Assembly: GCF_900102005.1 (NCBI RefSeq)
Contig: NZ_LT627736.1
Coordinates: forward strand, 558,001-622,000
Direction of reading: 5' to 3'
DNA: 64,000 nucleotides
From: Microbacterium sp. LKL04
GTDB lineage: Bacteria > Actinomycetota > Actinomycetes > Actinomycetales > Microbacteriaceae
Shown one piece after another: positions 4,195-64,000 of the stretch (its first letter is position 1; every line of letters starts with the position of its first letter). The notes under the pieces were generated by a model. It saw only the letters and a program-made list of their open reading frames with translations. It ran no database searches and had not been told where the DNA came from. Made by a program: the position numbers and the translations under genes.

Positions 4195-4225
4195 CTCGTT
4201 AACGCGTACGTGAGAGGACAGAGAG

Positions 4226-5863
4226 ATGACGGACGAGCAGCGCCCTGAAAAGTCGGGCGGCAAACGGAAGTTCACCCCTGCTTCCTCGAGCTCACGCGAC
4301 GAGCGGTCACGGGATCGCGGACGCCCGTCGCGCGGCGACGGCGACCGACGCCCCTTCGAGCGCCGCGACAGCGAACGCGGTTCCGCGCCGCGTCGCGAGA
4401 GTGACCGTCCGTCGTATCCGAAGCGTGATGGTGAGCGTCGCCCGTACGAGAAGCGTGCCGGTGACCGCTCCTCGTACCCGCGCCGCGACGGTGACCGTCC
4501 GTCGTACCCGAAGCGAGATGGCGAGCGTCGTCCGTACGAGAAGCGTGACGGCGACCGCCCCTCGTACCCGAAGCGCGATGGCGAGCGTCGTCCGTACGAG
4601 AAGCGTGACGGCGACCGTCCGTCGTACCCGAAGCGGGACGGCGAGCGTCGTCCGTACGAGAAGCGCGATGGCGAGCGTCGTCCGTACGAGAAGCGCGATG
4701 GCGAGCGTCGTCCGTACGAGAAGCGTGACGGCGACCGTCCGTCGTACCCCAAGCGTGACGGCGACCGTCCGTCCTACCCGCGCCGTGACGGCGACCGTCC
4801 GTCGTACCCCAAGCGTGACGGCGAGCGACGTCCGTACGAGAAGCGTGACGGTGAGCGTCGCCCGTACGAGAAGCGTGACGGCGACCGCCCCTCGTACCCG
4901 AAGCGGGATGGCGAGCGTCGTCCGTACGAAAAGCGTGACGGTGACCGTCCGTCGTACCCGCGCCGTGATGGTGACCGTCCGTCGTACCCGCGCCGCGATG
5001 GCGACCGTCCGTCGTACCCGCAGCGCGACGGGGAGCGTCGGTCTTCGCGGCCGCCGCAGGACTCGGACCGTCGGAGCATGCCGGCAGGCCCGGTCGTTCC
5101 CGATGAGGTCACGGCACGCGATCTCAACGGTGCTGCGCGCAACGAGCTGAAGACCCTCAGCAAGGACAACGCCGAGCAGGTCGCGCGGCACCTCGCCATG
5201 GCCGCCCGTCTCATCGATGAAGACCCGACCCTGGCCCACGAGCACGCCCTGGCGGCATCCCGCAGCGCCGGTCGCATCGCCGTAGTCCGCGAGACCGTCG
5301 CGATCACGGCCTACGCCGTCGGGGACTTCGCCCTCGCCCTGCGCGAGCTGCGGACGTTCCGCCGGATCTCCGGTCGAGACGACCAGATCGCCCTGATGGT
5401 CGACAGCGAGCGCGGTGTCGGTCGCCCCGACCGCGCGCTCGAGGTCGGACGTGCCGTCGACCGTGCTTCTCTGCCGACCGACGTCCGTGTCGAACTCGCG
5501 ATCGCGATGTCGGGCGCCCGTCTCGACCTCGGTCAACCCGACCGTGCCCTCCAGGAACTCGACATTCCCGAACTCGATCCGGACACGGCGTTCCCGTGGA
5601 GCCCCGGACTGTTCGCGGCGCGCGCTGCCGTCCTCGAAGAGCTCGGCCAGGACGATGAGGCCGCCCAGTGGCAGCGTCGGGCCGACATCGCCGCCGCGGC
5701 TCTGGGTGAGGTCGATGCCGATTCGGAGACGATCGAGATCGACGAGATCGATGAGATCGAGCTCGACGAAGAGATCGAGGACCCGGCCGACGACGCCGGT
5801 GGCGACGACGTGGACGACGAACCGGCATCCGTTCAGGAGGACGACGAGGAGGAGCGCTCCTGA
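4226..5863 (+). CDS. Arg-rich decapeptide-repeat protein with TPR-like C-terminal half (Rv1691-like)
   Basis: This 545-residue protein has three parts. Residues 57-266 are 21 uninterrupted decapeptides of two kinds: nine RDGERRPYEK-type and twelve RDGDRPSYPK/R-type, each coded by 30 bp. Residues about 285-490 are Ala/Leu/Arg-rich alpha-helical repeats resembling TPRs. The last 45 residues are very acidic (ExDEIDEIELDEE...). The position before a HAD phosphatase and tlyA matches M. tuberculosis Rv1691, a conserved TPR-like protein of unknown function that, as I recall it, lacks this repeat block. The ATG follows a GAGAGGA ribosome site. The stop overlaps the next start by 1 nt. The positively charged, disordered N-terminus suggests RNA or ribosome contact, which is inference only. 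Function unknown. Confidence 0.85.
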   Translation: MTDEQRPEKSGGKRKFTPASSSSRDERSRDRGRPSRGDGDRRPFERRDSERGSAPRRESDRPSYPKRDGERRPYEKRAGDRSSYPRRDGDRPSYPKRDGERRPYEKRDGDRPSYPKRDGERRPYEKRDGDRPSYPKRDGERRPYEKRDGERRPYEKRDGERRPYEKRDGDRPSYPKRDGDRPSYPRRDGDRPSYPKRDGERRPYEKRDGERRPYEKRDGDRPSYPKRDGERRPYEKRDGDRPSYPRRDGDRPSYPRRDGDRPSYPQRDGERRSSRPPQDSDRRSMPAGPVVPDEVTARDLNGAARNELKTLSKDNAEQVARHLAMAARLIDEDPTLAHEHALAASRSAGRIAVVRETVAITAYAVGDFALALRELRTFRRISGRDDQIALMVDSERGVGRPDRALEVGRAVDRASLPTDVRVELAIAMSGARLDLGQPDRALQELDIPELDPDTAFPWSPGLFAARAAVLEELGQDDEAAQWQRRADIAAAALGEVDADSETIEIDEIDEIELDEEIEDPADDAGGDDVDDEPASVQEDDEEERS

Positions 5864-6894
5864 TGGGGCTTTTCTCCCGCACGCGTCCCACGCCTCTCGA
5901 CGGCGTCGACCTGGTCCTCGCGGATCTCGACGGCGTCGTCTACGCGGGTGACGCTGCGATCCCGCACGCCGTGGAGAGTCTGACGGCATCGCGACGAGAC
6001 CGTCCGCTCGCGTACATCACGAACAACGCCTCCCGTCGTGACAGTGTCGTGGCCGGGCACCTCACGGAGCTCGGTCTCGCGACCGAGCCGCACGAGGTCG
6101 TCACCAGTCCGCAGGCGGCCGTCCGGTTGCTGCGCGACAAGGTCCCCTCGGGTGCCACCATCCTCGTCGTCGGCGGCGACGGTCTCGTCTTCGAGCTCGA
6201 GAAGGCCGGTTACTCGGTGACCCGGAGTGCGGACGATCGTCCAGCCGCCGTCGTCCAGGGCTTCGCTCCCGAGGTGGGCTGGGCGCAGCTCGCCGAGGCG
6301 GCATACGCCCTCGCACTCCCCGAAGAGGAGGGCGGCATCCCCTGGATCGCCACGAACACCGACTGGACGATCCCGCAGGCACGCGGCATCGCACCGGGCA
6401 ACGGCACTCTCGTCTCCGCGGTGCACACGGCTGTGGGACGACTGGCCACCGTCGCGGGAAAGCCCGAGCGCCCCATCTTCGACGAGGCGGTCGCGCGGTT
6501 CGGGGCACGGCATCCGCTCTTCATCGGCGACCGGCTCGACACCGACATCGCCGGCGCGCAGGCCGCGGAGATCGACTCCGTCCTGGTGCTCACCGGGATC
6601 GACCGGCCCAAGCACGTCCTGGCCGCGCCGAACTCCTCGAGGCCGACCTACATCGTCGGCGACCTGAGAGAGCTCCACGAGCCGTACCCCGAGACGATCG
6701 TGAAGGGCGACGTGACCACCGTCGGCTCCGCCTCGGTGCGGATCGACGGGCCGGACGTGCACATCGTCGCCGAGGGCGATCGTCCGATCGATCTCGTGCG
6801 CGCCGGCGCCGCGGCGATCTGGGGCACCGGACGGGCGATCTACGGCTTCCGGGTGCCCGAGCGGCTCTACGCCGACCCTTTCCACCGACGCTGA
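5863..6894 (+). CDS. HAD-IIA family phosphatase (NagD/phosphoglycolate phosphatase-like)
   Basis: This is a 343-residue HAD-superfamily subclass IIA hydrolase. Motif I is DLDG at residues 21-24, where Asp21 should be the phosphorylated nucleophile. A conserved ITNNAS segment forms motif II. The C-terminal GDRLDTDIAGA forms the Mg-binding motif IV. The M. tuberculosis counterpart at this locus, Rv1692, is described as a glycerol-3-phosphate phosphatase, so dephosphorylation of a small sugar or polyol phosphate is likely; the substrate cannot be read from sequence. The ATG overlaps the previous TGA by 1 nt, implying translational coupling. About 65 extra C-terminal residues follow motif IV. Confidence 0.9.
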   Translation: MGLFSRTRPTPLDGVDLVLADLDGVVYAGDAAIPHAVESLTASRRDRPLAYITNNASRRDSVVAGHLTELGLATEPHEVVTSPQAAVRLLRDKVPSGATILVVGGDGLVFELEKAGYSVTRSADDRPAAVVQGFAPEVGWAQLAEAAYALALPEEEGGIPWIATNTDWTIPQARGIAPGNGTLVSAVHTAVGRLATVAGKPERPIFDEAVARFGARHPLFIGDRLDTDIAGAQAAEIDSVLVLTGIDRPKHVLAAPNSSRPTYIVGDLRELHEPYPETIVKGDVTTVGSASVRIDGPDVHIVAEGDRPIDLVRAGAAAIWGTGRAIYGFRVPERLYADPFHRR

Positions 6895-6937
6895 CGACAG
6901 CGCCGCCGCGTTCACGTCTGCCGTCCTCCGCGCCGCG

Positions 6938-6943
6938 TAGGGT
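6938..6943 (+). promoter_or_regulatory. -10 hexamer TAGGGT, probably leaderless
   Basis: TAGGGT lies 7 nt before the ATG of the small gene at 6951. Transcription starting about 7 nt downstream would begin at or next to the start codon, giving a leaderless message for the small protein, tlyA and nadK. Confidence 0.5.
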
Positions 6944-6950
6944 GGGGGAC

Positions 6951-7115
6951 ATGTCGATGGATGCCGCTGACGGCGACGCGCGCCGCGAGGACCTGCTCTC
7001 GACGCTCGAAGTGATCGAGGACCAGCCGCTGGGGGAGCGCGCGGCCGCGTACGCGCTCCTGCACGACGAGCTCGCGAAGCGTCTCGAGTCGGGTCCGCGC
7101 GACCCGAACGCATGA
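6951..7115 (+). CDS. Small conserved hypothetical protein (Rv1693-like)
   Basis: This 54-residue acidic helical protein was too short for routine ORF listing. It begins MSMDAADGDARRED and contains LLSTLEVIEDQPLGERAAAY followed by a helix with LHDELAKRL. It sits between the HAD phosphatase and tlyA, the position of the small M. tuberculosis gene Rv1693. Its TGA overlaps the tlyA ATG in an ATGA arrangement, and a TAGGGT hexamer precedes the ATG by 7 nt. Conserved place, coupling and good codon use make it a real gene; the function is unknown. Confidence 0.8.
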   Translation: MSMDAADGDARREDLLSTLEVIEDQPLGERAAAYALLHDELAKRLESGPRDPNA

Positions 7116-7918
7116 GCAGCCGACTCGACGCGGCCGTGGCCGCACGCGGTCTCGCGCGCAGCCGCACCCATGCGGCTCAGCTCATCGACGCGGGACTGGT
7201 CAGCGTCGACGGTCAGCCCGTCGTGAAGGCCTCGGTCAAGGTTGGCGACGAACAGCACATCGAGGTCGCGGCATCCGACCATTACGTCAGCCGCGCCGCC
7301 CACAAACTCCTGGCCGCCCTCGACGCGTTCGGAGTCGACCCGGGCGGGCGCGTCGCGCTCGACATGGGAGCCTCGACCGGAGGGTTCACCCAGGTGCTCG
7401 TCGAGCGCGGCGCCGCCCGGGTGCTCGCCGTCGACGTGGGACACGGGCAGCTTGCGGCGGAGGTCGCCGCCCTTCCCGAGGTGGCCGTGGTCGAAGGCTT
7501 CAACGTACGGCACATGACGCCCGCGTCCCTCGCCGAGGCGAGCGGCGTCGCCGACGTGCCGACCCTCGTGACAGGGGACCTCTCGTTCATCTCGCTCACG
7601 CACGTCCTCCCCGCAGCGGCGGCTGTGTGCGCTGCGGCATCCGATCTCGTTCTGCTCGTCAAGCCGCAGTTTGAAGTCGGCCGCACGGGTGTCCGGGAGG
7701 GTCTGGTGACGGATGCCGGGCGCCGGGCGGACGCTGTGGCGGGCGTCCTGTGGTCGGCGTGGGATGCCGGCCTCGGAACCCACGGGGTGATCGCGTCGCC
7801 GATCGCCGGGACTCACGGCAACCGCGAGTTCCTCATCCATCTGCGACCCGGGACGACCGACGACGTCAATCCGACACAATGGTTGGACACCGTGAACCGA
7901 CTGGCGGGAGCCGCATGA
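7112..7918 (+). CDS. tlyA: TlyA family rRNA 2'-O-methyltransferase
   Basis: This 268-residue SAM-dependent methyltransferase has an N-terminal S4 RNA-binding domain (about 1-60) and a Rossmann methylase fold. The SAM-binding motif is DMGASTGG at 84-91, with acidic VDVGHGQL following. Lys65 (RAAHKL), the Asp of GDLSFISL and the Lys of LVKPQFEVG fit the 2'-O-methylase catalytic set. In mycobacteria TlyA 2'-O-methylates 16S C1409 and 23S C1920, and its loss gives capreomycin resistance. The start is the ATG in the ATGA overlap with the 54-residue gene. The 3' end overlaps nadK by 4 nt. Confidence 0.95.
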   Translation: MSSRLDAAVAARGLARSRTHAAQLIDAGLVSVDGQPVVKASVKVGDEQHIEVAASDHYVSRAAHKLLAALDAFGVDPGGRVALDMGASTGGFTQVLVERGAARVLAVDVGHGQLAAEVAALPEVAVVEGFNVRHMTPASLAEASGVADVPTLVTGDLSFISLTHVLPAAAAVCAAASDLVLLVKPQFEVGRTGVREGLVTDAGRRADAVAGVLWSAWDAGLGTHGVIASPIAGTHGNREFLIHLRPGTTDDVNPTQWLDTVNRLAGAA

Positions 7919-8835
7919 CCGACGCGACGCGCAACATCCTCGTGGTGGCGCACGCGCTGCGTGAGAACACCGTGGCCGGCGCCCGGCGCGTGGTCGCCGC
8001 CGTCCACGCGGCGGGGTTGCGCCCCGTGGTCCCGGGCGACGACCCCGAGCTCGCGGCTGCGCTCGGCGACCTCGACACGGCGATCCTCGGCGAAGGCGGC
8101 ATCGACGTCTCGGACATTGAGATCGCGATCGTCCTCGGCGGCGACGGCACGATCCTCCGCGCGGCCGAGCTGGTGCGCGCGGCATCCGTTCCCCTCCTGG
8201 GGGTCAACATGGGTCACGTCGGTTTCCTCGCCGAGCTCGAAGCGGACGACGTCGACGAGGCGATCGGTCGCGCCCTCGCGCGCGACTACGAGATCCACGA
8301 GCGGATGACGCTCTCGGTCGAGGTGCGCGACGCCGACGGCCGTCTCGTGTACTCCACGTGGGCGCTCAACGAGGCGACCGTCGAGAAGGCTTCGCGCGAG
8401 CGCATGCTCGAGGTCATGATCGAGATCGACGGGCGGCCGCTGTCGTCCTTCGGCTGCGACGGCGTCGTCGTGGCGACCCCGACTGGTTCGACGGCCTACA
8501 ACTTCTCCGCAGGCGGCCCCGTCGTCTGGCCTTCGGTGCAGGCGCTCTGCCTCGTGCCCCTGTCGGCGCACGCTCTCTTCGCCCGGCCCCTCGTCCTCGG
8601 ACCCGAGACATCCGTCTCGCTCGACGTCCTCGAGCGCAACCAGGGCCGGGGCGTCCTGTGGTGCGACGGCCGACGCTCGCACGACCTGCCTCCCGGCGCA
8701 CGTGTCGTCGTCGGGCGGTCGACACAGCCCGTACGCCTGGCGCGCCTGCACCGCTCGGTGTTTACCGACCGCCTGGTCCGGAAGTTCCAGCTCCCCATCG
8801 CGGGGTGGCGGGGCGACCCGGAGGCCGTGCTGTGA
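7915..8835 (+). CDS. nadK: NAD kinase
   Basis: This 306-residue cytosolic kinase makes NADP+ from NAD+ and ATP or polyphosphate. Diagnostic motifs are GGDGT at 75-79, the NEATVEKA segment and the glycine-rich GSTAYNFSAGGP near residue 195. The frame stays open 165 nt further upstream, but the ATG at 7915, overlapping the tlyA stop as ATGA, gives the canonical N-terminus (MTDATRNILVVAH) and normal length. It is the third gene of the coupled tlyA-nadK-recN set, matching Rv1694-Rv1696. Confidence 0.95.
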   Translation: MTDATRNILVVAHALRENTVAGARRVVAAVHAAGLRPVVPGDDPELAAALGDLDTAILGEGGIDVSDIEIAIVLGGDGTILRAAELVRAASVPLLGVNMGHVGFLAELEADDVDEAIGRALARDYEIHERMTLSVEVRDADGRLVYSTWALNEATVEKASRERMLEVMIEIDGRPLSSFGCDGVVVATPTGSTAYNFSAGGPVVWPSVQALCLVPLSAHALFARPLVLGPETSVSLDVLERNQGRGVLWCDGRRSHDLPPGARVVVGRSTQPVRLARLHRSVFTDRLVRKFQLPIAGWRGDPEAVL

Positions 8836-10526
8836 TCGAGCAGATCCGCCTGCGCGACCTCGGGGTCATCGCGGGGGCGACTCTGCCGATCGGTCCGGGC
8901 TTCACCGCGATCACGGGTGAGACCGGTGCCGGCAAGACGATGGTGGTCACGGGTCTCGGCCTTCTCCTCGGAGCGCGAGCGGACTCCGGCGCCGTGCGCG
9001 CCGGAGCGGATCAGGCAGCGGTCGACGGCGTGTGGATCGTCCCGGAGGCCGGCGCTGTCGTCGAACGGGTCCGGGATGCCGGGGGCGACATCGAACCCCT
9101 CGGCGACGGGCGGGCGGAGCTCTACCTCGGTCGCACGCTGTCGAGCGAGGGTCGCAGTCGTGCCACCGTCGGCGGCCGGACGGCGCCCGCGGGTGTGCTC
9201 GCGGACCTCGCGGACCAGCTCGTGGTCGTCCACGGTCAGTCCGATCAGCTCCGGTTGACGTCGGCCGCCGCGCAGCGCGACGCGCTCGACCGGTTCGGCG
9301 GTGCCGAGATCGCGACGGCGCTCGAACGGTACCGCGCGGTGTGGGATGCCTGGCGGAACGCGGCGGCAGAGCTCGAGACGCTGACGACCGAGCAGAGCGC
9401 GCGTGCGCGTGAGGCGGAGGAACTCCGGAGCGCGATCGACGCGATCGAAGCGGTCGACCCGCAGCCCGGCGAGGACGTCGAGCTGACGCAGCGCGCCGAC
9501 CGCTTGGCGAACGTCGAGGAATTGCGGATGGCCGCGGCCACCGCGCACACCGCGCTCTCGAACGAGGACGACCTGCCCGATGTGCAGGAGCTCCTGTCTG
9601 AGGCTCGACGGGCCCTCGAGCGCGCTGCCGGTACCGACGAGGTGCTGCGAGCGCACGCTGCGGCGATCGAGGAGCTCGGCTACCGGGTCGCCGACATCGC
9701 GGGGGAGCTCAGCGGGTATCTCGCCGACCTCGACGAGGGCGGTCCGCACGAGCTCGCGGCGGTCGAAGAGCGACGGGCCGCACTGGGTGCCCTCATCCGG
9801 GTCCACGGTTCGCTGGACGAGGCCATCGGGCTGCTCGCCACGGGCTCCGCGCGCCTCGCCGAGCTCGACGACGACGGCGACCGCATCGAGCGGCTCACCG
9901 TCGAACGCGATCGGCTCCGCGACGAACTCGACGCGCGCGCCGCCGAGCTGACGGAGGCGCGGCGAGCCGCGGCATCCCGTCTCGGCGACGCCGTCACCGA
10001 GGAGCTCCGTCACCTCGCCCTCCCCGACGCGCGGCTGACGGTCGCCGTCGACCCCGGCTCCGAGGCCGCTCACGGCCGCGATGTCGTGACGATCCAGCTC
10101 GCGCCGCATCCCGGCGCGTCTCCGCGTCCGGTCGCCCGCGGCGCGTCCGGTGGTGAGCTCAGCCGTGTCATGCTCGCGATCGAGGTCGTGATCGCGGGCA
10201 CCGATCCCGTTCCGACGTTCGTCTTCGACGAGGTGGATGCCGGTATCGGCGGTGCCGCGGCGATCGAGGTGGGCCGCCGGCTCGCGAAACTCGCCGAGAC
10301 GAGCCAGGTCATCGCCGTCACCCACCTGGCGCAGGTGGCCGCCTTCGCCGGCAACCACCTGTCGGTCGTCAAATCGAACGACGGATCGGTCACTGCCTCG
10401 AGCGTCCGTCGTCTCGAGGGAGACGACCGCGCAGCCGAGATGGCACGGCTCCTGTCGGGCATGGCGGATTCGGACGCGGCGCTCGGGCACGCGCGCGAAC
10501 TGCTCGAACTCGGACGCGCTCGCTGA
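8832..10526 (+). CDS. recN: DNA repair protein RecN
   Basis: This 564-residue SMC-like ATPase acts in double-strand break repair. Walker A is GETGAGKT at 29-36. The centre (about 160-370) is a long Glu/Arg/Ala-rich coiled coil. The ABC signature region lies at RGASGGELSRVMLAIE, and Walker B is FVFDE at 463-467, followed by DAGIGG. The GTG start at 8832 overlaps the nadK TGA (GTGA); starts further upstream in this frame would lie inside nadK. In M. tuberculosis, recN is followed by Rv1697 and Rv1698; here pyrG follows directly. Confidence 0.95.
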   Translation: MIEQIRLRDLGVIAGATLPIGPGFTAITGETGAGKTMVVTGLGLLLGARADSGAVRAGADQAAVDGVWIVPEAGAVVERVRDAGGDIEPLGDGRAELYLGRTLSSEGRSRATVGGRTAPAGVLADLADQLVVVHGQSDQLRLTSAAAQRDALDRFGGAEIATALERYRAVWDAWRNAAAELETLTTEQSARAREAEELRSAIDAIEAVDPQPGEDVELTQRADRLANVEELRMAAATAHTALSNEDDLPDVQELLSEARRALERAAGTDEVLRAHAAAIEELGYRVADIAGELSGYLADLDEGGPHELAAVEERRAALGALIRVHGSLDEAIGLLATGSARLAELDDDGDRIERLTVERDRLRDELDARAAELTEARRAAASRLGDAVTEELRHLALPDARLTVAVDPGSEAAHGRDVVTIQLAPHPGASPRPVARGASGGELSRVMLAIEVVIAGTDPVPTFVFDEVDAGIGGAAAIEVGRRLAKLAETSQVIAVTHLAQVAAFAGNHLSVVKSNDGSVTASSVRRLEGDDRAAEMARLLSGMADSDAALGHARELLELGRAR

Positions 10527-10597: not shown

Positions 10598-12298
10598 GTG
10601 ACGGACTCTTCGGGCGCGGGACGCAAAAACAACGACATCACCAAGCACATCTTCGTGACGGGTGGTGTCGTTTCGTCTCTCGGCAAGGGTTTGACCGCCG
10701 CCAGCCTCGGTAACCTCCTCACCGCGCGCGGCCTGCGCGTCGTGATGCAGAAGCTCGACCCGTACCTGAACGTCGACCCGGGGACGATGAACCCGTTCCA
10801 GCACGGCGAGGTCTTCGTGACCGACGACGGCGCCGAGACCGACCTCGACATCGGTCACTACGAGCGCTTCCTCGACATCGAGCTGAGCCAGGCCGCGAAC
10901 GTCACGACGGGTCAGATCTACTCCGAGGTCATCGCCAAAGAGCGCCGCGGCGAGTACCTGGGCGACACCGTCCAGGTGATCCCGCACATCTCCGACGAGA
11001 TCAAGCGGCGCATGCGCCTGCAGGCGAGCGAAGAGCCCCGCCCCGACGTGATCATCACCGAGGTCGGCGGCACGGTCGGCGACATCGAGTCGCAGCCCTT
11101 CATCGAGTCGGCGCGTCAGATCCGGCACGAGCTCGGCCGCGACAACGTCTTCTTCGTGCACGTCTCGCTGGTGCCGTTCATGGGTGCCTCGGGTGAGCAG
11201 AAGACCAAGCCCACGCAGCACTCCGTCGCGATGCTGCGCTCCATCGGCATCCAGCCCGACGCTCTCGTCCTGCGCAGCGACCGCCCCGTCACCGAATCGA
11301 ACAAGCGCAAGATCGCGCTCATGTGCGACGTCGACGAGGACGCGGTCATCAACACCGTCGACCTGCCGAGCATCTACGACATCCCCTCGACGCTCAGCGA
11401 CCAGGGTCTCGACGCGTACATCGTGCGCCGCCTGGGCCTCGACGCCAAGGCGGGCGACATCGACTGGACCCGCTGGAACAAGGTCCTGAACGCGGTCCAC
11501 AACCCCAAGCACGAGGTGACCGTCGGTCTCGTCGGCAAGTACATCGACCTGCCCGATGCGTACCTCTCGGTCACCGAGGCACTGAAGGCAGGCGGGTTCG
11601 CCCAGGAGACCAAGGTCCAGATCGTGTGGATCCCCTCGGATCTGTGCGAGACGCCCGAGGGTGCCGCGAAGGCCCTGTCTGCCGTCGACGGGATCGTCAT
11701 CCCCGGCGGCTTCGGCATCCGCGGCATCGAGGGCAAGCTGGGGGCGCTGAAGTTCGCCCGCGAGCAGGGACTGCCGACGCTCGGCATCTGCCTCGGCCTG
11801 CAGTGCATGGTCATCGAGTACGCGCGCCACGTCGCCGGTATCGAGGACGCGTCCTCGAGCGAGTTCGACCCGGAGACGCCGCACCCGGTCATCGCGACCA
11901 TGGCGGAGCAGGTCGACATCCTGGACCGCGGGGACATGGGCGGCACGATGCGTCTGGGCCTGTACGAGGCTGCACTGGCCGAGGGGTCGCTCGCCGCGGA
12001 GCTCTACGGCTCGGACCGTGCGACCGAGCGTCACCGTCACCGCTACGAGGTCAACAACGCCTACCGCCAGCAGATCGCAGACGCGGGTCTCTGGTTCTCG
12101 GGCCTGAACCCCGACCTCGACCTCGTCGAGTACGTCGAGCTCCCGCGAGACGTGCACCCGTACTACATCGCGACCCAGGCGCACCCCGAGCTCCGCTCGC
12201 GGCCGACCGAGGCCAACCCGCTCTTCCGAGGTCTCATCGCCGCAGCGCTCGACCGGCACCGTGCGAGCGAGCTGTTCGACGTCGAGAACGAGGACTGA
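10598..12298 (+). CDS. pyrG: CTP synthase
   Basis: This 566-residue enzyme makes CTP from UTP, ATP and glutamine, the last step of pyrimidine nucleotide synthesis. The N-terminal amidoligase domain opens with [16 protein letters not shown], which holds the P-loop. The C-terminal class-I glutamine amidotransferase domain has its nucleophile Cys398 in GICLGLQC, with His/Glu in the [10 protein letters not shown] segment. The family's signature acidic patch lies around [12 protein letters not shown]. The start is GTG at 10598. The next gene begins 3 nt after the stop, so pyrG and the Nudix gene are probably co-transcribed. Confidence 0.97.
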
Positions 12299-12958: not shown

Positions 12959-13882
12959 GTGAGGCTCGCGCGCGCCGTCGACGCGTTCCTCCGGCACATC
13001 ACGATCGAGCGCGGACTGTCGGCGCACACCGTCGCGGCCTACCGTCGCGACCTGGCCGGGTACCTCGCGTGGCTCGCTGAGCGGGGCGTCGAGGACACGG
13101 ATGCCGTGACGGGGGAGCTCGTCACCGGGTTCGCGGCGGAACGCGCGTCATCCGAGCCACCGCCGGCGTCGACCTCGTTGGCGCGGCTGCAGTCCGCCAT
13201 CCGCAGCTTCCATCGCTTCCTCGCACGCGAGGGCATCGTGACGGACGATCCGACGACGAAGCTGCGGCCACCCAAGGCGCCGATGCGCCTCCCGAAGGCG
13301 TTGCCCGTCGAGGACGTTCTCCGGCTGTTGGATGCCGCCGGCCCCGCGCCCGCGGACGCCGCACCCGGCGAACTCGTCGGCCTGCGTGATCGCGCGCTGC
13401 TCGAGCTCCTGTACGCGACGGGTGCGCGCGTGTCGGAGATCGTCGACCTGGACGTCGACGATCTGATGCACGGCGAGGTCCTGCGGGTGCGCGGCAAGGG
13501 GTCGAAGGAACGCATCGTCCCCGTCGGGTCGTACGCGCGAGCGTCGGTGGACGCCTACCTCACCCGCGCGAGGCCGGAGCTGTCGCGCCGCGGGCGGGCG
13601 ACGCCGCGAGCGTTCCTCGGCGCGCGGGGAGCTCCGCTGTCGCGGCAGAGCGCGTGGCTCGTGATCCAGCAGGCCGCCGAGCGGGCGGGGATCACCGCCC
13701 ACGTGTCTCCGCACACGCTCCGGCACTCGTTCGCGACGCACCTGTTGCAGGGCGGTGCCGACGTCCGCGTCGTGCAGGAGCTCCTCGGCCACGCCTCGGT
13801 CGCCACGACTCAGATCTACACGCACGTCACGGTGGATGCGCTCCGCGACGTGTATCTCACCTCGCACCCGCGCGCGAGATGA
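12959..13882 (+). CDS. xerD: Tyrosine recombinase XerD
   Basis: This 307-residue site-specific recombinase resolves chromosome dimers at dif with XerC and FtsK. An N-terminal SAM-like core-binding domain spans about 1-95 and the catalytic domain about 110-307. All six active-site residues are visible: Arg157 (GARVSE), Lys180 (RGKGSKE), His252 and Arg255 (PHTLRHS), His278 (LLGHAS) and nucleophile Tyr287 (TQIYTHV). The GTG start is 6 nt after the Nudix stop. Position before parA-scpA-scpB matches Rv1701, so this is the housekeeping enzyme rather than a phage integrase. Confidence 0.94.
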
Positions 13883-18186: not shown

Positions 18187-18856
18187 CCCGATCACGATCG
18201 CCATCGACGGCCCCGCAGGCAGCGGCAAGTCGAGCGTGTCGAAGGAAGCTGCCCGACGCCTGGGCTACGGCTACCTCGACACCGGTGCCGCCTATCGGGC
18301 GCTGGCCTGGCACGTCCTGCAGCACGGCGCCGACACGTCCGACGCCTCGGCCGTCGTCGACGCCGCCGGCGACTTCGACTACGCCATCTCGCTCGACCCC
18401 GACGAGTACTGGGTGCGGGTGGGGGAGACCTCGGTCACCGAGGCGATCCGCGAGCCCCGTGTCAGCTCAGCCGTGAGCGGTGTGGCGCGCGTGCCGGTGA
18501 TCCGCGAGCAGGTCAACGTGCTGTTCCGTCGCCTCGTGGCCGAATCCGGTCGCCCCGGCGTCATCGTCGAGGGACGCGACATCACGACCGTCGTCGCCCC
18601 CGACGCCCCCGTGCGGATCCTTCTGACCGCCGCCCCCGAGGTGCGCGCCGCGCGGCGCAGCGCCGAATTGACCACAGAGGATGCCGCGGCTGTCGCCGCC
18701 GCGCTGCACAAGCGTGACGCATCCGACTCCCAGGTCGTCGACTTCCTCACCGCCGCCCCCGGCGTGACGGTCGTCGACTCGACCGACCTGGACTTCGCAC
18801 AGACCGTCGACGCCGTCCTGGACGTCGTGCGGTCGGGAACGGAAGGCTCGCGATGA
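18179..18856 (+). CDS. cmk: Cytidylate kinase
   Basis: This 225-residue kinase phosphorylates CMP and dCMP with ATP. The P-loop GPAGSGKSS spans 11-19, the [10 protein letters not shown] motif follows, and [18 protein letters not shown] is the acceptor-site region. The ATG at 18179 sits within the last 8 nt of tyrA; a TTG 12 nt earlier is possible but less likely. The gene overlaps der by 4 nt. With pyrG it supports CTP/dCTP supply. Confidence 0.95.
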
Positions 18857-20440: not shown

Positions 20441-20509
20441 CGCTGGGGATCTGTTCCGCGACATGACGGATGCCGCACCTCGCCGCCGAGCGCGTGAGAG
20501 GCTGATCGC

Positions 20510-36618: not shown

Positions 36619-36663
36619 ACGCAGGGGTGGGGATGCCGCCCGCCGCCCAGCGCGCGACGCCGC

Positions 36664-52741: not shown

Positions 52742-54577
52742 TCAGTTGCCGAGCGAGATGTTCGTCGTCGAGACGTTCGCCTGGTAGAGCTCGTCGATGT
52801 CGGCAGCGAAGTCCGACAGGATGACGTTCCGCTTGATGCTCATCTTCGGCGTCAGATGACCGGATGCCTCGGTCCACTCGGTGTCCAGGATCACGAACTT
52901 GCGGATCGACTCCGCTCGCGACACCGACGCGTTGGCGCGGTCCACCGCGCTCTGCACCTCGGCGATGACCTTCGGGTGGGCGATGACCTGCGACATCGGC
53001 ATGTCGGACGAGAGGCCGTTGTTCGACATCCACGTCGGCAGCATCTCGCGGTCGAGGGTGACGAGCGCTCCGATGAACGGCTTCTGATCGCCCACGACGA
53101 CGACCTGACCGACGATCGGGTTCGCGCGGATCGGGTCCTCGAGCACCGCAGGCGCGACGTTCTTCCCGCCCGCGGTGACGATGATCTCCTTCTTGCGGCC
53201 CGTGATCGTGAGGTATCCTTCGGAGTCGAACGTCCCGATGTCCCCGGTGCGGAACCACCCGTCGTCGAACGCTTCGGCGGTCGCCTCGGGGTTGCGCCAG
53301 TACTCCTTGAACACGTTGACTCCGCGGACCTCGATCTCGCCGTCGTCAGCCAGACGTACGCCCACGCCAGGGAGAGCGGGACCGACGGTGCCGATCTTCG
53401 ACTTCGTGGCGAGGTTGACGGTCGCGGGAGCGGTCGTCTCGGTCAGGCCGTATCCCTCGAGGATCTGTACGCCGAGGCTGTGGAAGAAGTGGCCGAGGCG
53501 CGACCCGAGAGGCGCGGATCCCGACACGGCATGCTGGACACGGCCGCCCATGGCTGTGCGCAGCTTGCTGTAGACGAGCCGGTCGAACAGGGCGAACTTG
53601 ATCTTCATGCCGATCGGGATCTTCTCGCCGTCCTGCAGGCGACGCGAGTGCTCGACAGCCACGGCTGCGGCGGCGCGGAAGATCTTGCCCTTGCCGCCGG
53701 CCTCGGCCTTCTGCTCGGCGGAGTTGTAGACCTTCTCGAACACACGGGGCACGGCGAGGAGGTACGTCGGCTTGAACGACCCGAGTCCGGCGAGGAGTTT
53801 CGTGGTGTCGGGCTCGTGGCCCGTCTTGACGCCGCCGTGGATGTTGAGGATGGAGATGAACCGCGCGAACACGTGCGCGAGCGGGAGGAACAGCAGCGTC
53901 GAGGCTCCCGGCTGTTGGACCACCTCGTGGAGCGCCCTGGCGGAATTGCGCGAGAGCTCGACGAAGTTCTTGTGCGTGAGGACGCACCCCTTCGGTCGGC
54001 CGGTCGACCCGGACGTGTAGATCAGGGTCGCGATGTCGTCGGAGTTCGCGAGGTTCCGGCGGCGTTCGATCTCCTCGTCGCTGATGGACGAGCCGTTCTT
54101 GCGCAGCGTGTCGAGGTCGCCGGACTGCATCGTCCAGACCTCGCGCAGGAGAGGTACCTCGGAGCGGATCTCGGCGACGCGATCCGCGTGCACGTCGCTC
54201 TCGACCACGATGGCGATGGCCCCGGAGTCGCTGAGGATCCAGTTGATCTGCGACGGCGAGCTCGTTTCGTAGACGGGCACCATGACGGCCCCCGCGAAGA
54301 AGAGGGCGAAATCGACGAGCGTCCAGTTGTACGTGGTCCGCGCGAGGAACGCGACCTTGTCGCCGGGCTGGATGCCGCTCGCGGCGAACCCCTTCGCCAG
54401 CGCGAGGACCTCCCGGTGGAATTCCGCGGCCGTGATGTCACGCCAGCCGTCCCCGTCGGGGACCGCGAAGAGGGCCAGCGAGGGAGTCGCCTTCACCCGC
54501 TCCACGAGGATGTCGGAGGTGTTCGCGGTCGGATCCGCGGGCACGACAGCGGGGACGTCGAATTGTACGGCGCTCAT
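52742..54577 (-). CDS. Long-chain acyl-CoA synthetase (FadD15-like)
   Basis: This 611-residue AMP-forming synthetase activates fatty acids to acyl-CoA via acyl-AMP. The P-loop signature is IYTSGSTGRPKGCVLTHKN, the adenylation motif is GYGLTETTAP, and the hinge and DDGWFRTGDIG and GRKKEIIVTAGGKN segments follow. It resembles the eukaryotic-type long-chain synthetases common in Actinobacteria. ATG 54577 follows GGAG with 9 nt spacing; a TTG 9 nt upstream is less likely. It is divergent from the ROK kinase. Confidence 0.93.
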   Translation of the reverse strand: MSAVQFDVPAVVPADPTANTSDILVERVKATPSLALFAVPDGDGWRDITAAEFHREVLALAKGFAASGIQPGDKVAFLARTTYNWTLVDFALFFAGAVMVPVYETSSPSQINWILSDSGAIAIVVESDVHADRVAEIRSEVPLLREVWTMQSGDLDTLRKNGSSISDEEIERRRNLANSDDIATLIYTSGSTGRPKGCVLTHKNFVELSRNSARALHEVVQQPGASTLLFLPLAHVFARFISILNIHGGVKTGHEPDTTKLLAGLGSFKPTYLLAVPRVFEKVYNSAEQKAEAGGKGKIFRAAAAVAVEHSRRLQDGEKIPIGMKIKFALFDRLVYSKLRTAMGGRVQHAVSGSAPLGSRLGHFFHSLGVQILEGYGLTETTAPATVNLATKSKIGTVGPALPGVGVRLADDGEIEVRGVNVFKEYWRNPEATAEAFDDGWFRTGDIGTFDSEGYLTITGRKKEIIVTAGGKNVAPAVLEDPIRANPIVGQVVVVGDQKPFIGALVTLDREMLPTWMSNNGLSSDMPMSQVIAHPKVIAEVQSAVDRANASVSRAESIRKFVILDTEWTEASGHLTPKMSIKRNVILSDFAADIDELYQANVSTTNISLGN

Positions 54578-54723
54578 GGGCGGCAACTCCTTCGGTACCG
54601 GGTGGCGTCAGGTGCGACCGAGTCTAGGGCATCGTGATCCTCGATCCCGCGGCGGCAGCGGGATGCGCCGCCCCATTAGACTCACGGATGCCGTGCGGCC
54701 TCGCACGCGCGGAGAGGAGTCGC

Positions 54724-55660: not shown

Positions 55661-56347
55661 ATGATCTACTGGGTCCTGAAATACCTGATCATCGGACCGA
55701 TCGTGAAGGCGATCTTCCGACCGTGGATCGTGGGACGCAGCAACATTCCGGCATCCGGTGCGGCCATCATCGCGAGCAACCATCTGTCCGTGAGCGACTC
55801 CATCTTCCTGCCGCTCATGATCGACAGGTCCATGTCCTTCCTCGCCAAGAGCGACTACTTCACGGGCAAGGGTCTGAAGGGGTGGGCGACCCGGGTGTTC
55901 ATGCAGGGGACGGGACAGATCCCCATCGACCGCACCGGCGGCAAGGCCTCCGAGGCCTCCCTCAACACCGGCCTGCAGGTCCTCGGCCGCGGCGACATCC
56001 TCGGGATCTACCCCGAGGGGACCCGCAGTCCCGACGGCAAGCTCTACCGGGGTCGTACGGGTCTCGCGCGCATGGCCCTGACCGCGCGGGTGCCCGTCAT
56101 CCCCGTCGTCATGATCGGCACCGACGAGGTCATGCCGATCGGGCGTTCCATCCCTCGGGTGGGCCGCGTGGGCATGGTGATCGGGGAGCCGCTCGACTTC
56201 AGTCGGTTCTACGGCATGGAGTCCGACCGTTTCGTGCTGCGATCGGTGACCGACGAGATCATGGTCGCGCTGCAGCGCATGGGGGAGCAGGAGTACGACG
56301 ACGTCTACGCGTCCACGGTCAAGGACCGCCGCCCCGCCGCGGCCTGA
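55661..56347 (+). CDS. 1-acyl-sn-glycerol-3-phosphate acyltransferase (PlsC-like)
   Basis: This 228-residue membrane-associated acyltransferase carries the catalytic His41-x4-Asp46 (NHLSVSD) and the PEGTRSPDGK glycerophosphate-binding motif. A hydrophobic N-terminus (MIYWVLKYLIIGPIV) anchors it. It should add the second acyl chain to lysophosphatidic acid; closely related enzymes act on other lipids. It follows the glucokinase gene by 1 nt and so shares its transcript. The nearby acyl-CoA synthetase could supply its substrate. Confidence 0.9.
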   Translation: MIYWVLKYLIIGPIVKAIFRPWIVGRSNIPASGAAIIASNHLSVSDSIFLPLMIDRSMSFLAKSDYFTGKGLKGWATRVFMQGTGQIPIDRTGGKASEASLNTGLQVLGRGDILGIYPEGTRSPDGKLYRGRTGLARMALTARVPVIPVVMIGTDEVMPIGRSIPRVGRVGMVIGEPLDFSRFYGMESDRFVLRSVTDEIMVALQRMGEQEYDDVYASTVKDRRPAAA

Positions 56348-56397: not shown

Positions 56398-57726
56398 ATG
56401 CCCACTCCTCTCGACCACTGGCGCTCGCTCCCGATCAAGCAGCAGCCGTTGTGGCCCGACGCGGATGCGGTCGCGGCCGTCTCCGCCGAGATCGCGACCC
56501 TCCCGCCGCTCGTCTTCGCCGGCGAGGTCGACAACCTCCGTGCGCGCCTCGCGAAGGCGGCATCCGGTCAGGCCTTCCTCCTGCAGGGCGGCGACTGCGC
56601 CGAGACGTTCGCGGGCGCCACGGCACAGCAGATCCGCGACCGGATCAAGACGGTCCTGCAGATGGCGGTCGTCCTGACCTACGGCGCGTCGATGCCGGTC
56701 GTGAAGATGGGCCGCATGGCGGGTCAGTTCGCCAAGCCGCGCTCGAGCGACACCGAGACGCGGGGCGAGGTGACGCTCCCGGCCTACCGCGGAGACATCG
56801 TCAACGGGTACGACTTCACCGAGGCGTCGCGCACCGCGGACCCGCAGCGGCTGCTCAAGGGTTACCACACGGCCGCCTCGACGTTGAACCTGGTCCGCGC
56901 GTTCACGCAGGGCGGCTTCGCGGATCTCCGCGAGGTGCACAGTTGGAACCAGGGCTTCGCCAAGAACCCGGCCAACCAGCGCTACGAGCGCCTGGCCGGC
57001 GAGATCGACCGCGCCATCAAGTTCATGGAGGCCGCGGGAGCGAACTTCGACGAGCTTCGCGGCGTCGAGTTCTACACCGGTCACGAGGGTCTGCTCATGG
57101 ACTACGAGCACCCCATGACCCGCATCGACTCGCGCACCGGCACTCCCTACAACACGTCGGCGCACTTCCTCTGGGTTGGGGAGCGCACGCGCGACCTCGA
57201 CGGCGCCCACGTCGACTACTTCTCGAAGATCCGCAACCCCATCGGGGTGAAGCTCGGACCCTCGACCACCCCCGAGACGGCTCTCGCGCTCATCGACAAG
57301 CTGGACCCCGAGCGCGAGCCCGGGCGTCTCACTTTCATCACCCGGATGGGCGCAGGCAAGATCCGCGACGCCCTCCCGCCGCTCCTGCAGGCAGTGAAGG
57401 ATGCCGGTGCGACACCGCTCTGGGTCACGGACCCGATGCACGGAAACGGCATCACGACGCCCACCGGCTACAAGACGCGTCGCTTCGACGACGTCGTCGA
57501 CGAGGTCCGGGGCTTCTTCGAGGCTCACCGCGCCGTCGGAACCTTCCCCGGCGGCATCCACGTGGAACTCACCGGCGACGACGTCACCGAGTGCCTGGGC
57601 GGCTCGGAGATGATCGACGAGGCGACACTGGCGACGAGGTACGAGTCGCTGTGCGACCCGCGACTGAACCACATGCAGTCGCTGGAACTGGCATTCCTCG
57701 TCGCCGAGGAGCTCGGCAAGCGCTGA
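56398..57726 (+). CDS. aroG: 3-deoxy-7-phosphoheptulonate synthase, class II
   Basis: This 442-residue type-II (plant-like) DAHP synthase catalyses the first step of the shikimate pathway from phosphoenolpyruvate and erythrose-4-phosphate. Family stretches are LQGGDCAETF with the metal Cys, KMGRMAGQFAKPRS, HVDYFSKIRNPIGVK and WVTDPMHGN. It corresponds to Rv2178c, near pknL in mycobacteria as here. Feedback control by aromatic amino acids is known for the family. A leaderless promoter precedes it. Confidence 0.96.
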   Translation: MPTPLDHWRSLPIKQQPLWPDADAVAAVSAEIATLPPLVFAGEVDNLRARLAKAASGQAFLLQGGDCAETFAGATAQQIRDRIKTVLQMAVVLTYGASMPVVKMGRMAGQFAKPRSSDTETRGEVTLPAYRGDIVNGYDFTEASRTADPQRLLKGYHTAASTLNLVRAFTQGGFADLREVHSWNQGFAKNPANQRYERLAGEIDRAIKFMEAAGANFDELRGVEFYTGHEGLLMDYEHPMTRIDSRTGTPYNTSAHFLWVGERTRDLDGAHVDYFSKIRNPIGVKLGPSTTPETALALIDKLDPEREPGRLTFITRMGAGKIRDALPPLLQAVKDAGATPLWVTDPMHGNGITTPTGYKTRRFDDVVDEVRGFFEAHRAVGTFPGGIHVELTGDDVTECLGGSEMIDEATLATRYESLCDPRLNHMQSLELAFLVAEELGKR

Positions 57727-57769: not shown

Positions 57770-57795
57770 TCGTCCTCGGAGACGGATGCCGGGTC

Positions 57796-59823: not shown

Positions 59824-61032
59824 TCACCCGTACAGGTCGAGCCAGCGGTAGGCCTCGTCCTTCCAGGGCCCGTAGCGTTCCGGGTACGCCGAGATCTGCA
59901 CGGCCTGGGCTGCGTCCCCGAAGGCCATCTCCTCCCACCCGTCGATGTCGAGGAGGCCGCGCGTGCGGTCGCCGTTCGGATCGGATGAGCCGCCGAAGAA
60001 CGCGGCCGCCGACCGACGGGGGTCGCGGATCTGCTTCTCGTTTCCCCAGCCGGCACTCGGGCGCTGCTGGAAGAGGCCGACCGAGTCCCGGTCGCCGCCG
60101 TCCAGGTTGCGGATCCAGGATTCGACCATCGCCGTCGCAAGCGCGATGGCGATTCCGTCCCGCGAGACGCCCCGGTCCCGTCCGACCTCGATGATGGTCC
60201 GGACGTTCGCGATCTGCTCGGCATCCAGGTCGGTCTGCCCAGGACGCGATTGCGTGGAGGCGGCCCGAGGCGCCGCAGCGGCGGGGATGCGGAGCTTCTG
60301 CCCGGGGTAGATGATGGATGCCTCGTCGAGCCCGTTCGCGTCGAGGAGTCGTGCGAGGGAGGTGCCGCTGTCCGCGGCGATCGCCCAGAGCGTCTCGCCG
60401 GCGGATACCTCGTGCACCGGCCCCGCCGCGGCTCGGGGGGACGGCGCCGGTGCCGCGGCGCGATGCGCGGCGAGTTCCGTGACCGTGAGTTTCTGGCCCG
60501 GGTGGATGATCGACGACGCGCCGAGCTCGTTGGCGCGGACCAGAGAGGCGACGCTCATCCCGTGGCGCTGTGCGATGGACCAGAGCGTGTCGCCGGGACG
60601 GACTTCATAGGCGGATGCCGTACCCCGGGCGGGCCGGGAGGGCTCGGCATCCGTCTTCTCCGTCTTCGGTCCGAGGCGGAGGACGTCGCCGGGGTGGATG
60701 AGCGAACGCCATCCGAGGTCGTTCCATGCCAGGACGTCGGCCGTGCGGACACCGTTCGCCGCCGCGATCGCGCTGATGGTCTCCCCGCGGGCGACGACAT
60801 GTGTCCGCACAGCAGCGCGCGCGGCGGGTGTCCCGACGGTCGTGGCGGGGCTCGCGGCTGGGACGGGCGTCGCGTGTGCCTTCGCCGACAGCGGTCGGGG
60901 CGCCGAGCGGTCGTGATCGTCCGCCGTGGCCGCGTCGACGGGGAGAAGGGACAGCGAGAGAGCGATCGACCCGATCACAGCGGGAGCGCCTCGGTGGAAC
61001 AGAGAGGCGGGCATGACGTCGTTCCGGTGCAC
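59824..61032 (-). CDS. Secreted LysM protein with lysozyme-like C-terminal domain
   Basis: This 402-residue exported protein has a signal sequence (about 7-37, ending near DAATADD). Three LysM peptidoglycan-binding modules follow (about 77-121, 142-185 and 207-249), separated by Ala/Pro linkers. The C-terminal domain (about 270-402) has IALATAMVESWIRNL and DSVGLFQQRPSAGWG, like transglycosylase/lysozyme-fold domains; Glu304 could be catalytic. GTG 61032 follows GAAGGAA; ATG 61014 and GTG 61086 are alternatives. It is 69 bp upstream of the PASTA kinase and codirectional. Confidence 0.87.
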   Translation of the reverse strand: MHRNDVMPASLFHRGAPAVIGSIALSLSLLPVDAATADDHDRSAPRPLSAKAHATPVPAASPATTVGTPAARAAVRTHVVARGETISAIAAANGVRTADVLAWNDLGWRSLIHPGDVLRLGPKTEKTDAEPSRPARGTASAYEVRPGDTLWSIAQRHGMSVASLVRANELGASSIIHPGQKLTVTELAAHRAAAPAPSPRAAAGPVHEVSAGETLWAIAADSGTSLARLLDANGLDEASIIYPGQKLRIPAAAAPRAASTQSRPGQTDLDAEQIANVRTIIEVGRDRGVSRDGIAIALATAMVESWIRNLDGGDRDSVGLFQQRPSAGWGNEKQIRDPRRSAAAFFGGSSDPNGDRTRGLLDIDGWEEMAFGDAAQAVQISAYPERYGPWKDEAYRWLDLYG

Positions 61033-62700: not shown

Positions 62701-63078
62701 ATGCCACTGTCAGAACAGGAGCAGCGTCTGCTGGACGAGATGGAACGCCATCTCATGCGCAACGACGCCGATGTTGTCAGCGCGGACCGTGGAGCGGCGC
62801 CGCTCAGCTACCGCAACATCGTCTACGGGTCCGTCATCGTGCTCTTGGGTATCGCCGGCCTCGTCGTCGGCGTGGCCACATCGCTGATCGTGATCGGCGT
62901 GGTCGCCTTCGTCGTCATGGTCGTCGGCGTCGTCCTCGCCTTCACACCGGCCAAGGGTGCGGCAGCCGCACGGAACGCGACCGGTACGCGTAAGCCGCGC
63001 GCCGCGAAGGCAGCGGCATCCGCCTCTTTCATGGATCGCATGAACGACCGCTGGGATCGCCGCAACGACGATCGCTGA
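62701..63078 (+). CDS. DUF3040 membrane protein (Rv2169c-like)
   Basis: This 125-residue protein begins with the family signature MPLSEQEQRLLDEMERHL. Two adjacent membrane helices follow (IVYGSVIVLLGIAGLVVGV; SLIVIGVVAFVVMVVGVVL), then a basic tail (TRKPRAAKA, DRWDRRNDDR). DUF3040 proteins are small and actinobacterial, near the mraZ/division cluster, with unknown function. The ATG follows GAGGGGG, and TACACT upstream is a plausible -10. The long upstream open frame is antisense to the synthase and not coding. Confidence 0.9.
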   Translation: MPLSEQEQRLLDEMERHLMRNDADVVSADRGAAPLSYRNIVYGSVIVLLGIAGLVVGVATSLIVIGVVAFVVMVVGVVLAFTPAKGAAAARNATGTRKPRAAKAAASASFMDRMNDRWDRRNDDR

Positions 63079-63140: not shown

Positions 63141-63220
63141 GTGTCCGCGCGGGCCTCCACCCGCCCTGCCGTCGTCCGGTGGTGCGGCAGGGATGCGGCG
63201 TGCCCCGAAACTGTCGCGGA

Positions 63221-63250
63221 GTGGAGGAAAGTGGAGTAAAGTGGCGTCAT
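63221..63250 (+). promoter_or_regulatory. MraZ-binding repeats at the mraZ promoter
   Basis: Three 10-bp direct repeats run head to tail: GTGGAGGAAA (63221), GTGGAGTAAA (63231) and GTGGCGTCAT (63241). MraZ is known to bind GTGG-type repeats spaced one helical turn apart and to control its own operon. TAAAGT at 63237-63242 is a plausible -10 inside the array, so bound MraZ would block polymerase. Confidence 0.8.
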
Positions 63251-63285
63251 CCTGGAGCAGGCCGGACGAAGGGGGTGACCGAGCG

Positions 63286-63717
63286 ATGTTGTTGGGCACC
63301 CACACCCCCAAGCTGGACGACAAAGGACGGGTCATCCTTCCCGCCAAGTTCCGCGACGATCTCGGTCCCGGTGTCGTCATCACCCGTGGCCAGGAACGCT
63401 GCCTCTACGTGTTCAGCTCGGCGGAGTTCGAGCGGGTCTACGAGCGCATCCGCGAGGCACCGCTGACCAACAAGCAGGCGCGCGACTTCCAGCGCATGTT
63501 CCTCTCGGGCGCCAGCGCCGAGAAGCCCGACTCCCAGAACCGCATCACCATTCCGCCTCACCTCCGCACCTACGCCGGGCTGGAGCGCGAGCTCATCGTC
63601 ACGGGTGTCGGCGCACACGCCGAGATTTGGAACGCGGACGCGTGGAACGCCTACGCCGACAGCAATGAGGACACGTACTCGGACATGGAGCAGGAGGTGA
63701 TCCCGGGACTCTTCTGA
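63286..63717 (+). CDS. mraZ: Transcriptional regulator MraZ
   Basis: This 143-residue protein has two SpoVT/AbrB-like swapped-hairpin domains: one at the start ([19 protein letters not shown]) and one in the middle ([20 protein letters not shown]). It forms a ring-shaped oligomer that binds the repeats upstream and represses the division and cell-wall (dcw) operon. ATG 63286 gives the invariant [11 protein letters not shown] start; the frame is open further upstream but crosses the promoter. rsmH follows 103 bp later. Confidence 0.95.
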
Positions 63718-63820
63718 TCCTCGACTGCGACTCCCAGCCGCACGCCCTGACGCACTTCCCCGGCGCCAGGTCGGAGCGGATGGGGATCGGGGTCGAGGGC
63801 CTCACGGAACCGAAGGAATC

Positions 63821-64000
63821 ATGGCCCACGACGAGATCCACACCCCCGTCCTGCTCGACCGTTGCATCGAGCTGTTGGCGCCTGCGCTGCAGCACGACGG
63901 CGCGGTCGTCGTCGACGCGACGCTCGGGATGGGCGGACACTCCGAGGCGCTTCTCGAACGCTTCCCCCAGGTGCGTCTGATCGGCCTCGACCGCGACACG
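63821..64000 (+). CDS. rsmH: 16S rRNA (cytosine-1402-N4)-methyltransferase, 5' part only
   Basis: Only the first 60 codons are inside the window. The reading begins [20 protein letters not shown] and contains the SAM-binding [15 protein letters not shown] motif and IGLDRD, both diagnostic of RsmH (MraW). It methylates N4 of C1402 in 16S rRNA. The ATG follows GAAGGA. It is the second gene of the dcw cluster; the gene runs off the right edge. Confidence 0.93.

Follow-up and report, generated by a model that had tools for sequence, protein, structure and literature searches.

The density of one eight-base word in the chromosome of Microbacterium sp. LKL04 raises the question as to whether such a word merely follows from the proteins and composition of the genome or is read by the cell on the DNA itself. 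The word is the octamer GGATGCCG, which an earlier note had picked out as strongly over-represented on both strands of a 64,000-nt stretch of contig NZ_LT627736.1 (positions 558,001 to 622,000 of the forward strand, hereafter the window). Our analysis shows that it is a real and strong genomic word that is genus-wide and has species dialects. The window contains 75 exact copies of GGATGCCG (37 forward and 38 reverse) compared with a mean of 5.5 and a maximum of 12 over 100 dinucleotide shuffles of the same sequence. Counts previously made by eye held up well, with about 38 copies placed between 5.2 and 29.8 kb where the exact list gives 39, and with the shorter GGATGC/GCATCC estimated at one per 500 bp or so and found 142 times in the 64 kb or once per 450 bases. 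Under the third-order Markov model that had been proposed as a yardstick, GGATGCCG ranks first by z-score among the 8-mers of the window (75 vs 11.7 expected), as does GGATGCC among the 7-mers (98 vs 22.4 expected).

The enrichment extends well outside the window. The whole genome, a single contig of 2,922,023 bases, holds 4,221 copies (2,094 + 2,127) or approximately one per 690 bases. Fold enrichment was taken relative to a control word consisting of the letters of GGATGCCG read backwards, which occurs 162 times in the genome. In 464 kb of the genome including the window GGATGCCG is again the top 8-mer by z-score, with 649 copies against 222 expected under an order-4 model. Its single-base variants reach at most 232 copies each in the same 464 kb and most are near their order-3 expectation, so that the word has sharp edges; the best extensions include GGATGCCGCG and ACGGATGCCG. 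Copies are spread evenly, at 17-39 per 20 kb across 21 stretches, and their spacing is near-random with close pairs somewhat scarcer than chance. A search of the literature for GGATGCCG or its complement as a complete word gave no match, and searches on uptake sequences in Actinobacteria and on octamers in Microbacterium gave none either.

If protein sequence, codon usage or mutation bias alone gave rise to the word, nulls that preserve these features should predict its count. The 427 genes predicted here, using a purpose-built codon model instead of a standard caller, hold 589 copies of GGATGCCG. Within-gene shuffles of synonymous codons average 108.8 copies (standard deviation 8.4, largest of 100 shuffles 134), and a context-preserving synonymous shuffle that keeps the two flanking bases on each side lifts the expectation to 223.8 (standard deviation 12.0, largest of 30 shuffles 245). 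Codon context thus accounts for up to 224 of the 589 gene copies and both nulls fall short of the observed count; the rarity of the codons GAT and GCA, to which the earlier note had pointed, is covered by these shuffles. Of the two outcomes that the earlier note had named as refuting, a null model aware of codons that yields the observed number and a lack of enrichment beyond the window, neither was seen. The density of GGATGCCG between genes is as high as within them (1.53/kb intergenic and 1.40/kb in genes) and the copies in genes fall into three main codon registers (236, 180 and 135 of 589), in keeping with their reported recurrence in different reading frames. As the codon nulls fall short, the intergenic density is similar and three registers are used, selection appears to act on the DNA and not on the protein, as had been suggested, and a different word is found in a congener whose composition is similar. 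We therefore regard an origin as a by-product as almost certainly wrong. Among intergenic regions, gaps between convergent genes have a density of 2.74/kb (13 sites), co-directional gaps 1.92/kb (31 sites) and divergent gaps 0.95/kb (12 sites), with a p of 0.011 for convergent vs divergent.

Four roles had been put forward for the word, namely a Chi-type recombination signal, a DNA-uptake-type sequence, a nucleoid-protein site and a methylation target. The last of these fares worst. GGATGCCG is non-palindromic and contains the pentamers GGATG and GCATC, both known type IIS sites, which would suit a methylation or defence recognition site. GGATG however occurs 266 times in the window against 209.9 expected and 75 of these belong to copies of GGATGCCG, which leaves no enrichment of the pentamer by itself, and sites for restriction or defence are usually avoided in genomes and not enriched. 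We consider this role highly improbable.

A clearer view of the word comes from the relatives of LKL04. The genus and family compared here are taken to be Microbacterium and Microbacteriaceae, since the three named matches to the ComEC of the window genome, 84-90% identical, are from Microbacterium oleivorans (two) and Microbacterium sp. 11MF. Within Microbacterium 32/35 genomes (that of the window included) have GGATGCCG at least 8-fold over the control. The comparison with related Microbacteriaceae proposed in the earlier note, a survey of 249 genomes, shows that enrichment differs widely among genera. Eight-fold enrichment is reached by 30 of 74 family representatives, a set made up of one genome of at least 2 Mb per genus together with the four drawn from the window's genus, from which smaller genomes were excluded. 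Enrichment was seen in 0/23 genomes from other families of the order, none of which exceeds 3.7 times the control.

Some of the genomes poor in GGATGCCG have another word in its place. These were sought in sampled sequence as observed/expected counts under an order-3 Markov model; whole-genome counts cover the dialect words GGATGCCG and GGATGCGG, and the other words come from samples only. In the congener G403 the word is GGATGCGG, at 139/15.5 in the sample and 4,263 copies in the whole genome (2,138 + 2,125; control 207). The congeners G385, G031 and G025 use CGGAACCA (101/7.1), CGGATGGC (61/11.4) and CCGGATG (98/28.1) respectively, and CGGATCC stands at 157/58.5 in the congener G220 and at 133/57.8 in G091. 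Further words are CAGGATCC in G104 (29/3.7), AGGAGGCG in G166 (60/8.8) and GCGGATCG in G108 (17/2.2) and G177 (28/8.7), two genomes of the same genus that are almost without GGATGCCG. G004 bears two words, GGATGCCG at 67/18.5 and GGATGCGG at 48/14.4, while G393 retains a weak GGATGCCG (54/18.0) and G033 a strong one (110/16.0 in the sample and 4,491 copies). No clear word was seen in the sequence sampled from G416, G071, G081, G073 or three small genomes, or in the 14-20 kb sampled from G309, G359 and G380, and G102 gave mainly a local repeat of GTATCGAGA type (14 copies vs 0.1 expected in 40 kb, L064-L065). The dialect words mostly contain GGA, which is the only part they share.

Repeats of other kinds turned up in the same samples. 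Short repeats of AGTGAGTA type at 20-base spacing occur 18 times vs 0.2 expected in 60 kb of G386 (L125 8674-8754 and 9790-9830, L104 6068-6311) and 8 times vs 0.2 in G334, and the G393 sample (L119, L160-L163) has repeats of CTCCGGCTC/GAGCCGGAG type, 25 vs 2.8 expected in 100 kb, that are probably those of a repeat-bearing gene.

We also looked at the fate of single copies. At sites aligned over 19 congeners (G031 left out, the poor genomes G393, G403 and G416 included) GGATGCCG is intact at 115/299 vs a fraction of 0.24 for all 8-mers, and in the nearest congener, 88% identical, at 34/44 vs 0.43 (p 5e-6). Site-by-site conservation of octamers was nevertheless rejected, since the inner hexamers fare no better inside GGATGCCG than outside it: GATGCC is kept at 56/116 inside vs 140/251 elsewhere, GGCATC at 79/184 vs 164/290, GCATCC at 77/184 vs 87/162 and GGATGC at 50/116 vs 100/244. 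It is therefore the density that is maintained and not the individual places, with copies that come and go.

Phages provide a further contrast. The Pelczarvirinae phages of Microbacterium Efeko, Noelani, Hernandez44 and Nobel, of approximately 17 kb, carry 13, 13, 14 and 13 copies of GGATGCCG, which is 5.9-8.7 times the Markov expectation and approximately 3-fold above codon-null means of 4.1-4.4. The observed count was reached in 0/300 shuffles for three of them and in 0/200 for Nobel, and no exonuclease or recombinase is annotated in any of the four. Efeko has 5-6 of its 13 sites in common with the other three at 75-76% identity (0.21-0.22 for all 8-mers), so that more than half are not common. 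Eden, Stromboli, Didgeridoo, Jovita and Buldak in contrast are phages of 39-43 kb with an annotated exonuclease each, and they contain 5, 6, 7, 8 or 12 copies vs 3.2-4.7 Markov-expected, or 1.1-2.7 times. The codon null was run for two of these, and in Eden it gives 4.0 for the 6 copies in genes, a count reached in 41/200 shuffles. In lambdoid phages of E. coli, Chi is over-represented where recombinases are lacking, with a median observed/expected of 3.12, and is selected against in phages that bring their own recombinases and block those of the host (PMC3784561). By analogy the Microbacterium phage contrast parallels that of Chi in lambdoid phages in direction and has a like size.

Which enzyme might read such a signal can be asked of the genomes. 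RecBCD was rejected as the reader, RecC being found in 0/30 genomes with a positive E. coli control. Paired genes for RecB-like (PDDEXK_1) nucleases a few kb apart are present in 25/25 genomes, and a profile of 17 frames of gene 1 matches 6ppj_A and kin, which we take to be mycobacterial AdnA chains, at an E of ~1e-168. Gene 1, the AdnA-type gene, has a Walker A motif and DDAQ where gene 2 has DEYQ; gene 2 has HGSKGLE, and a search of gene 1 for the KGLE pattern was without match. AdnAB is thus a candidate reader, as the enzyme class that would be expected in this role. The response of actinobacterial AdnAB enzymes to Chi was stated as not known in 2016 (PMC4824097), and Chi control of AdnAB as unclear in 2026 (PMC13309787).

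What is observed then is a genome-wide word at the level of DNA that is replaced in some relatives and kept in small phages without annotated exonuclease. Of the four proposed roles the Chi-type signal fits best, because of the phage contrast and the AdnAB-type gene pair in 25/25 genomes. A Chi-type signal for AdnAB is in our view the most likely function of GGATGCCG, ahead of an uptake sequence and of an organising site, and one that we hold at about an even chance. Thousands of copies in both orientations would mark the chromosome as self, and AdnAB, a helicase-nuclease of double-strand breaks, would switch from degradation of the end to repair on meeting GGATGCCG. The word would be read by AdnAB probably through the AdnA subunit, with a degenerate motif II in its helicase part, and changes of word would follow changes of the reader. 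Somewhat short of even is our confidence in the broader proposal that AdnAB, a third class of helicase-nuclease in break repair, obeys Chi and that it does so in Microbacteriaceae as species dialects replaceable wholesale within one genus; GGATGCCG, GGATGCGG, CGGATGGC, CGGAACCA, CAGGATCC, AGGAGGCG and others may be such dialects of Chi. Like the Chi of E. coli (RecBCD) and of Bacillus and Staphylococcus (AddAB), GGATGCCG is a short, non-palindromic and over-represented word in a host with a RecBCD-like enzyme, mostly carried by sampled phages without annotated recombination genes and much less so by exonuclease-bearing ones. It differs in that its reader would be AdnAB, for which control by Chi is not established, in the variation of the word between species of one genus and in its lack of strand bias. 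We class it as Chi-like and not as Chi.

Several observations weigh against the Chi-like reading. Known Chi sites typically show a leading-strand bias and none was seen for GGATGCCG in an origin-free heterogeneity test, which replaces one that placed the origin at position 1, where the first long frames showed no dnaA. The 21 stretches contain 313 copies in forward and 336 in reverse orientation, and the heterogeneity chi-square is 11.8 (21 degrees of freedom), where a strand bias of 75% would give ~178 and one of 60% ~46. The equal orientation in the earlier note extends from the window (37 vs 38) to the whole genome (2,094 vs 2,127). AdnAB within the genus forms two lineages that are ~50-55% identical, exceeding the divergence of background proteins (L140-L159, 20 genomes). 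Among the congeners with a switched word the second lineage includes G031, G025 and G220 and the first includes G403, with G385 apart. GGATGCCG itself is common to both lineages and G033 keeps it yet lies in the second. One AdnB column, residue 621, tracked the dialect perfectly in 20 congeners. Ala621 as its determinant failed a prediction set beforehand for other genera, where Ala is found in 10/10 GGATGCCG-rich and 10/10 poor genomes (G081 by alignment), and the GGATGCCG-rich G120 has Arg. Otherwise-invariant AdnAB residues are changed more often in the GGATGCGG species G403 than in G361, a genome equal to it in background (49 vs 16 in AdnAB and 40 vs 47 in the background). This acceleration is not specific, as a raised count (18 vs 10) is seen too in G271, a genome that retains GGATGCCG. 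Among the phages Didgeridoo is mildly enriched despite its exonuclease (11 in genes vs 6.4, 3/200 shuffles) and Min1, with no annotated exonuclease, is not enriched (5 vs 4.9 expected), so that the six larger phages, Min1 and the five exonuclease-bearing ones, together lie at 1.0-2.7 times the Markov expectation. All four enriched phages come from a single subfamily and the contrast rests on few lineages. The ten phages were picked from search listings and not at random, each being scored for GGATGCCG whatever the word of its host, and Buldak infects Curtobacterium.

Even density and lack of strand bias would also suit a site for a chromosome-organising or replication protein along the nucleoid, one that also helps small phages and has a species-specific specificity. 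The similar density in and between genes agrees with this, copies in phages would need no role in recombination, and the 17-kb phages encode an Lsr2-like protein. No candidate protein was identified however, and we reason that wholesale replacement of the octamer between congeners would require repeated change in the specificity of a core nucleoid protein. The HIP1 word of cyanobacteria is likewise an octamer over-represented genome-wide in coding and non-coding DNA, but HIP1-like words are palindromic and GGATGCCG is not its own complement. FtsK-orienting polar sequences (KOPS) and other polar sequences are also over-represented words of the octamer class but are strand-skewed, unlike GGATGCCG. 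An organising site is in our view unlikely.

The remaining role is that of a DNA-uptake sequence, in which a receptor of the competence system would recognise the octamer on free DNA and so favour uptake from the cell's own kind, uptake bias and recombination would keep the copies and sister species would have dialects. Uptake words in Neisseria and Haemophilus often lie as inverted pairs just behind genes. Of the pairs closer than 60 bases in the window genome, 21/34 are inverted in forward-then-reverse order (p 6e-6) and several of these sit just after stop codons, which together with equal orientation and a density of approximately one copy per 690 bases resembles the uptake sequences of Neisseriaceae (DNA uptake sequence, DUS) and Pasteurellaceae (uptake signal sequence, USS). 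The use of different words within a genus, most of them with GGA, recalls the dialects of DUS, which have a conserved core (PMC3630211). As a hallmark of uptake sequences the inverted pairs were nevertheless rejected, as the excess that is strong in the window genome was not reproduced in nine octamer-rich relatives (2/7 close pairs among 258 sites, based mostly on one 20-kb stretch per genome).

The machinery does not discriminate either. Competence genes were rejected as a discriminator, comEC being present in 61/61 distinct genomes (50/50 and 15/15), which allows for uptake but includes word-poor genomes, as does the T2SSE-type ATPase found in 30/30 genomes, word-rich and word-poor. PilM, a marker of type IVa pili, is found in 123/249 family genomes. 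A type IVa pilus was rejected as the receptor since PilM is not associated with octamer enrichment in the 74 representatives (46 vs 28, p 0.16), where a partial match in the window genome (G000) and a match below the curated cut-off in G130 were scored as present, and G033 with its 4,491 copies has no PilM match. Phages moreover should not keep an uptake word, yet four small ones do, and Microbacterium is Gram-positive, unlike the bearers of DUS and USS. We consider an uptake sequence improbable. A type IVa pilus locus with PilM-, PilB- and PilT-like matches lies at G000:C1:2259224-2265248 of the window genome, and a PilB-like match of that strength was not found in 7/8 congeners checked.

Within the window, forward-strand exact matches of GGATGCCG are found at 6959..6966, 7711..7718, 7762..7769, 9074..9081, 10235..10242, 13099..13106, 13330..13337, 15487..15494, 16624..16631, 17349..17356, 18679..18686, 20468..20475, 20746..20753, 21247..21254, 21747..21754, 25789..25796, 27820..27827, 28696..28703, 28985..28992, 29760..29767, 31193..31200, 31664..31671, 33861..33868, 34320..34327, 34499..34506, 36631..36638, 39742..39749, 41995..42002, 44123..44130, 46285..46292, 46705..46712, 49507..49514, 54370..54377, 54686..54693, 57399..57406, 57784..57791 and 60613..60620. 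Those on the reverse strand are at 5253..5260, 5823..5830, 6333..6340, 6508..6515, 7269..7276, 7635..7642, 8180..8187, 9970..9977, 11245..11252, 11713..11720, 17750..17757, 21488..21495, 22137..22144, 22507..22514, 24249..24256, 24774..24781, 26244..26251, 27572..27579, 29022..29029, 32036..32043, 32368..32375, 34050..34057, 35586..35593, 36428..36435, 37544..37551, 38163..38170, 39142..39149, 42410..42417, 45179..45186, 45386..45393, 48349..48356, 49134..49141, 55749..55756, 56558..56565, 57552..57559, 60219..60226, 60645..60652 and 63014..63021. The copies at 28985..28992 and 29022..29029 are the left and right arms of a predicted terminator-like hairpin, an inverted pair (28985..29029) that lies 3 bases past a predicted stop codon in the gap separating two convergent genes, while those at 60613..60620 and 60645..60652 are the left and right arms of an inverted pair (60613..60652) within a predicted gene. 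Two near-identical octamer hairpins in intergenic sequence lie approximately 600 bases apart at L019 13055 and 13651.

GGATGCCG is absent from the first 5.2 kb of the window, where ribosomal RNA (rRNA) genes occupy most of positions 1-4154. Soon after the 5S rRNA gene, at 4403-5043, a coding-type repeat of 30 bp is present in approximately 21 copies and reads as a ten-residue unit rich in Arg, Lys, Asp and Tyr, and an mraW leader RNA (Rfam RF01746) is located at 63712-63809.

The thousands of copies in LKL04, the presence of another word in some sister species and the copies in small phages suggest that the octamer marks DNA as "self" for repair enzymes in a species-specific way. Candidate words are now in hand, relatives that use other words can serve as internal controls and there are both phages that carry the word and phages that do not, so that the question of AdnAB and Chi is open to direct biochemical test. 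Should the reading of these words as dialects of Chi be true, species-specific codes for self DNA would limit gene exchange and phage range. Should GGATGCCG be an uptake sequence instead it would, so far as is known, be the first outside Proteobacteria. Either way, the replacement between congeners of a genomic word present in approximately 4,000 copies represents a striking co-evolution of a genome and its reader.

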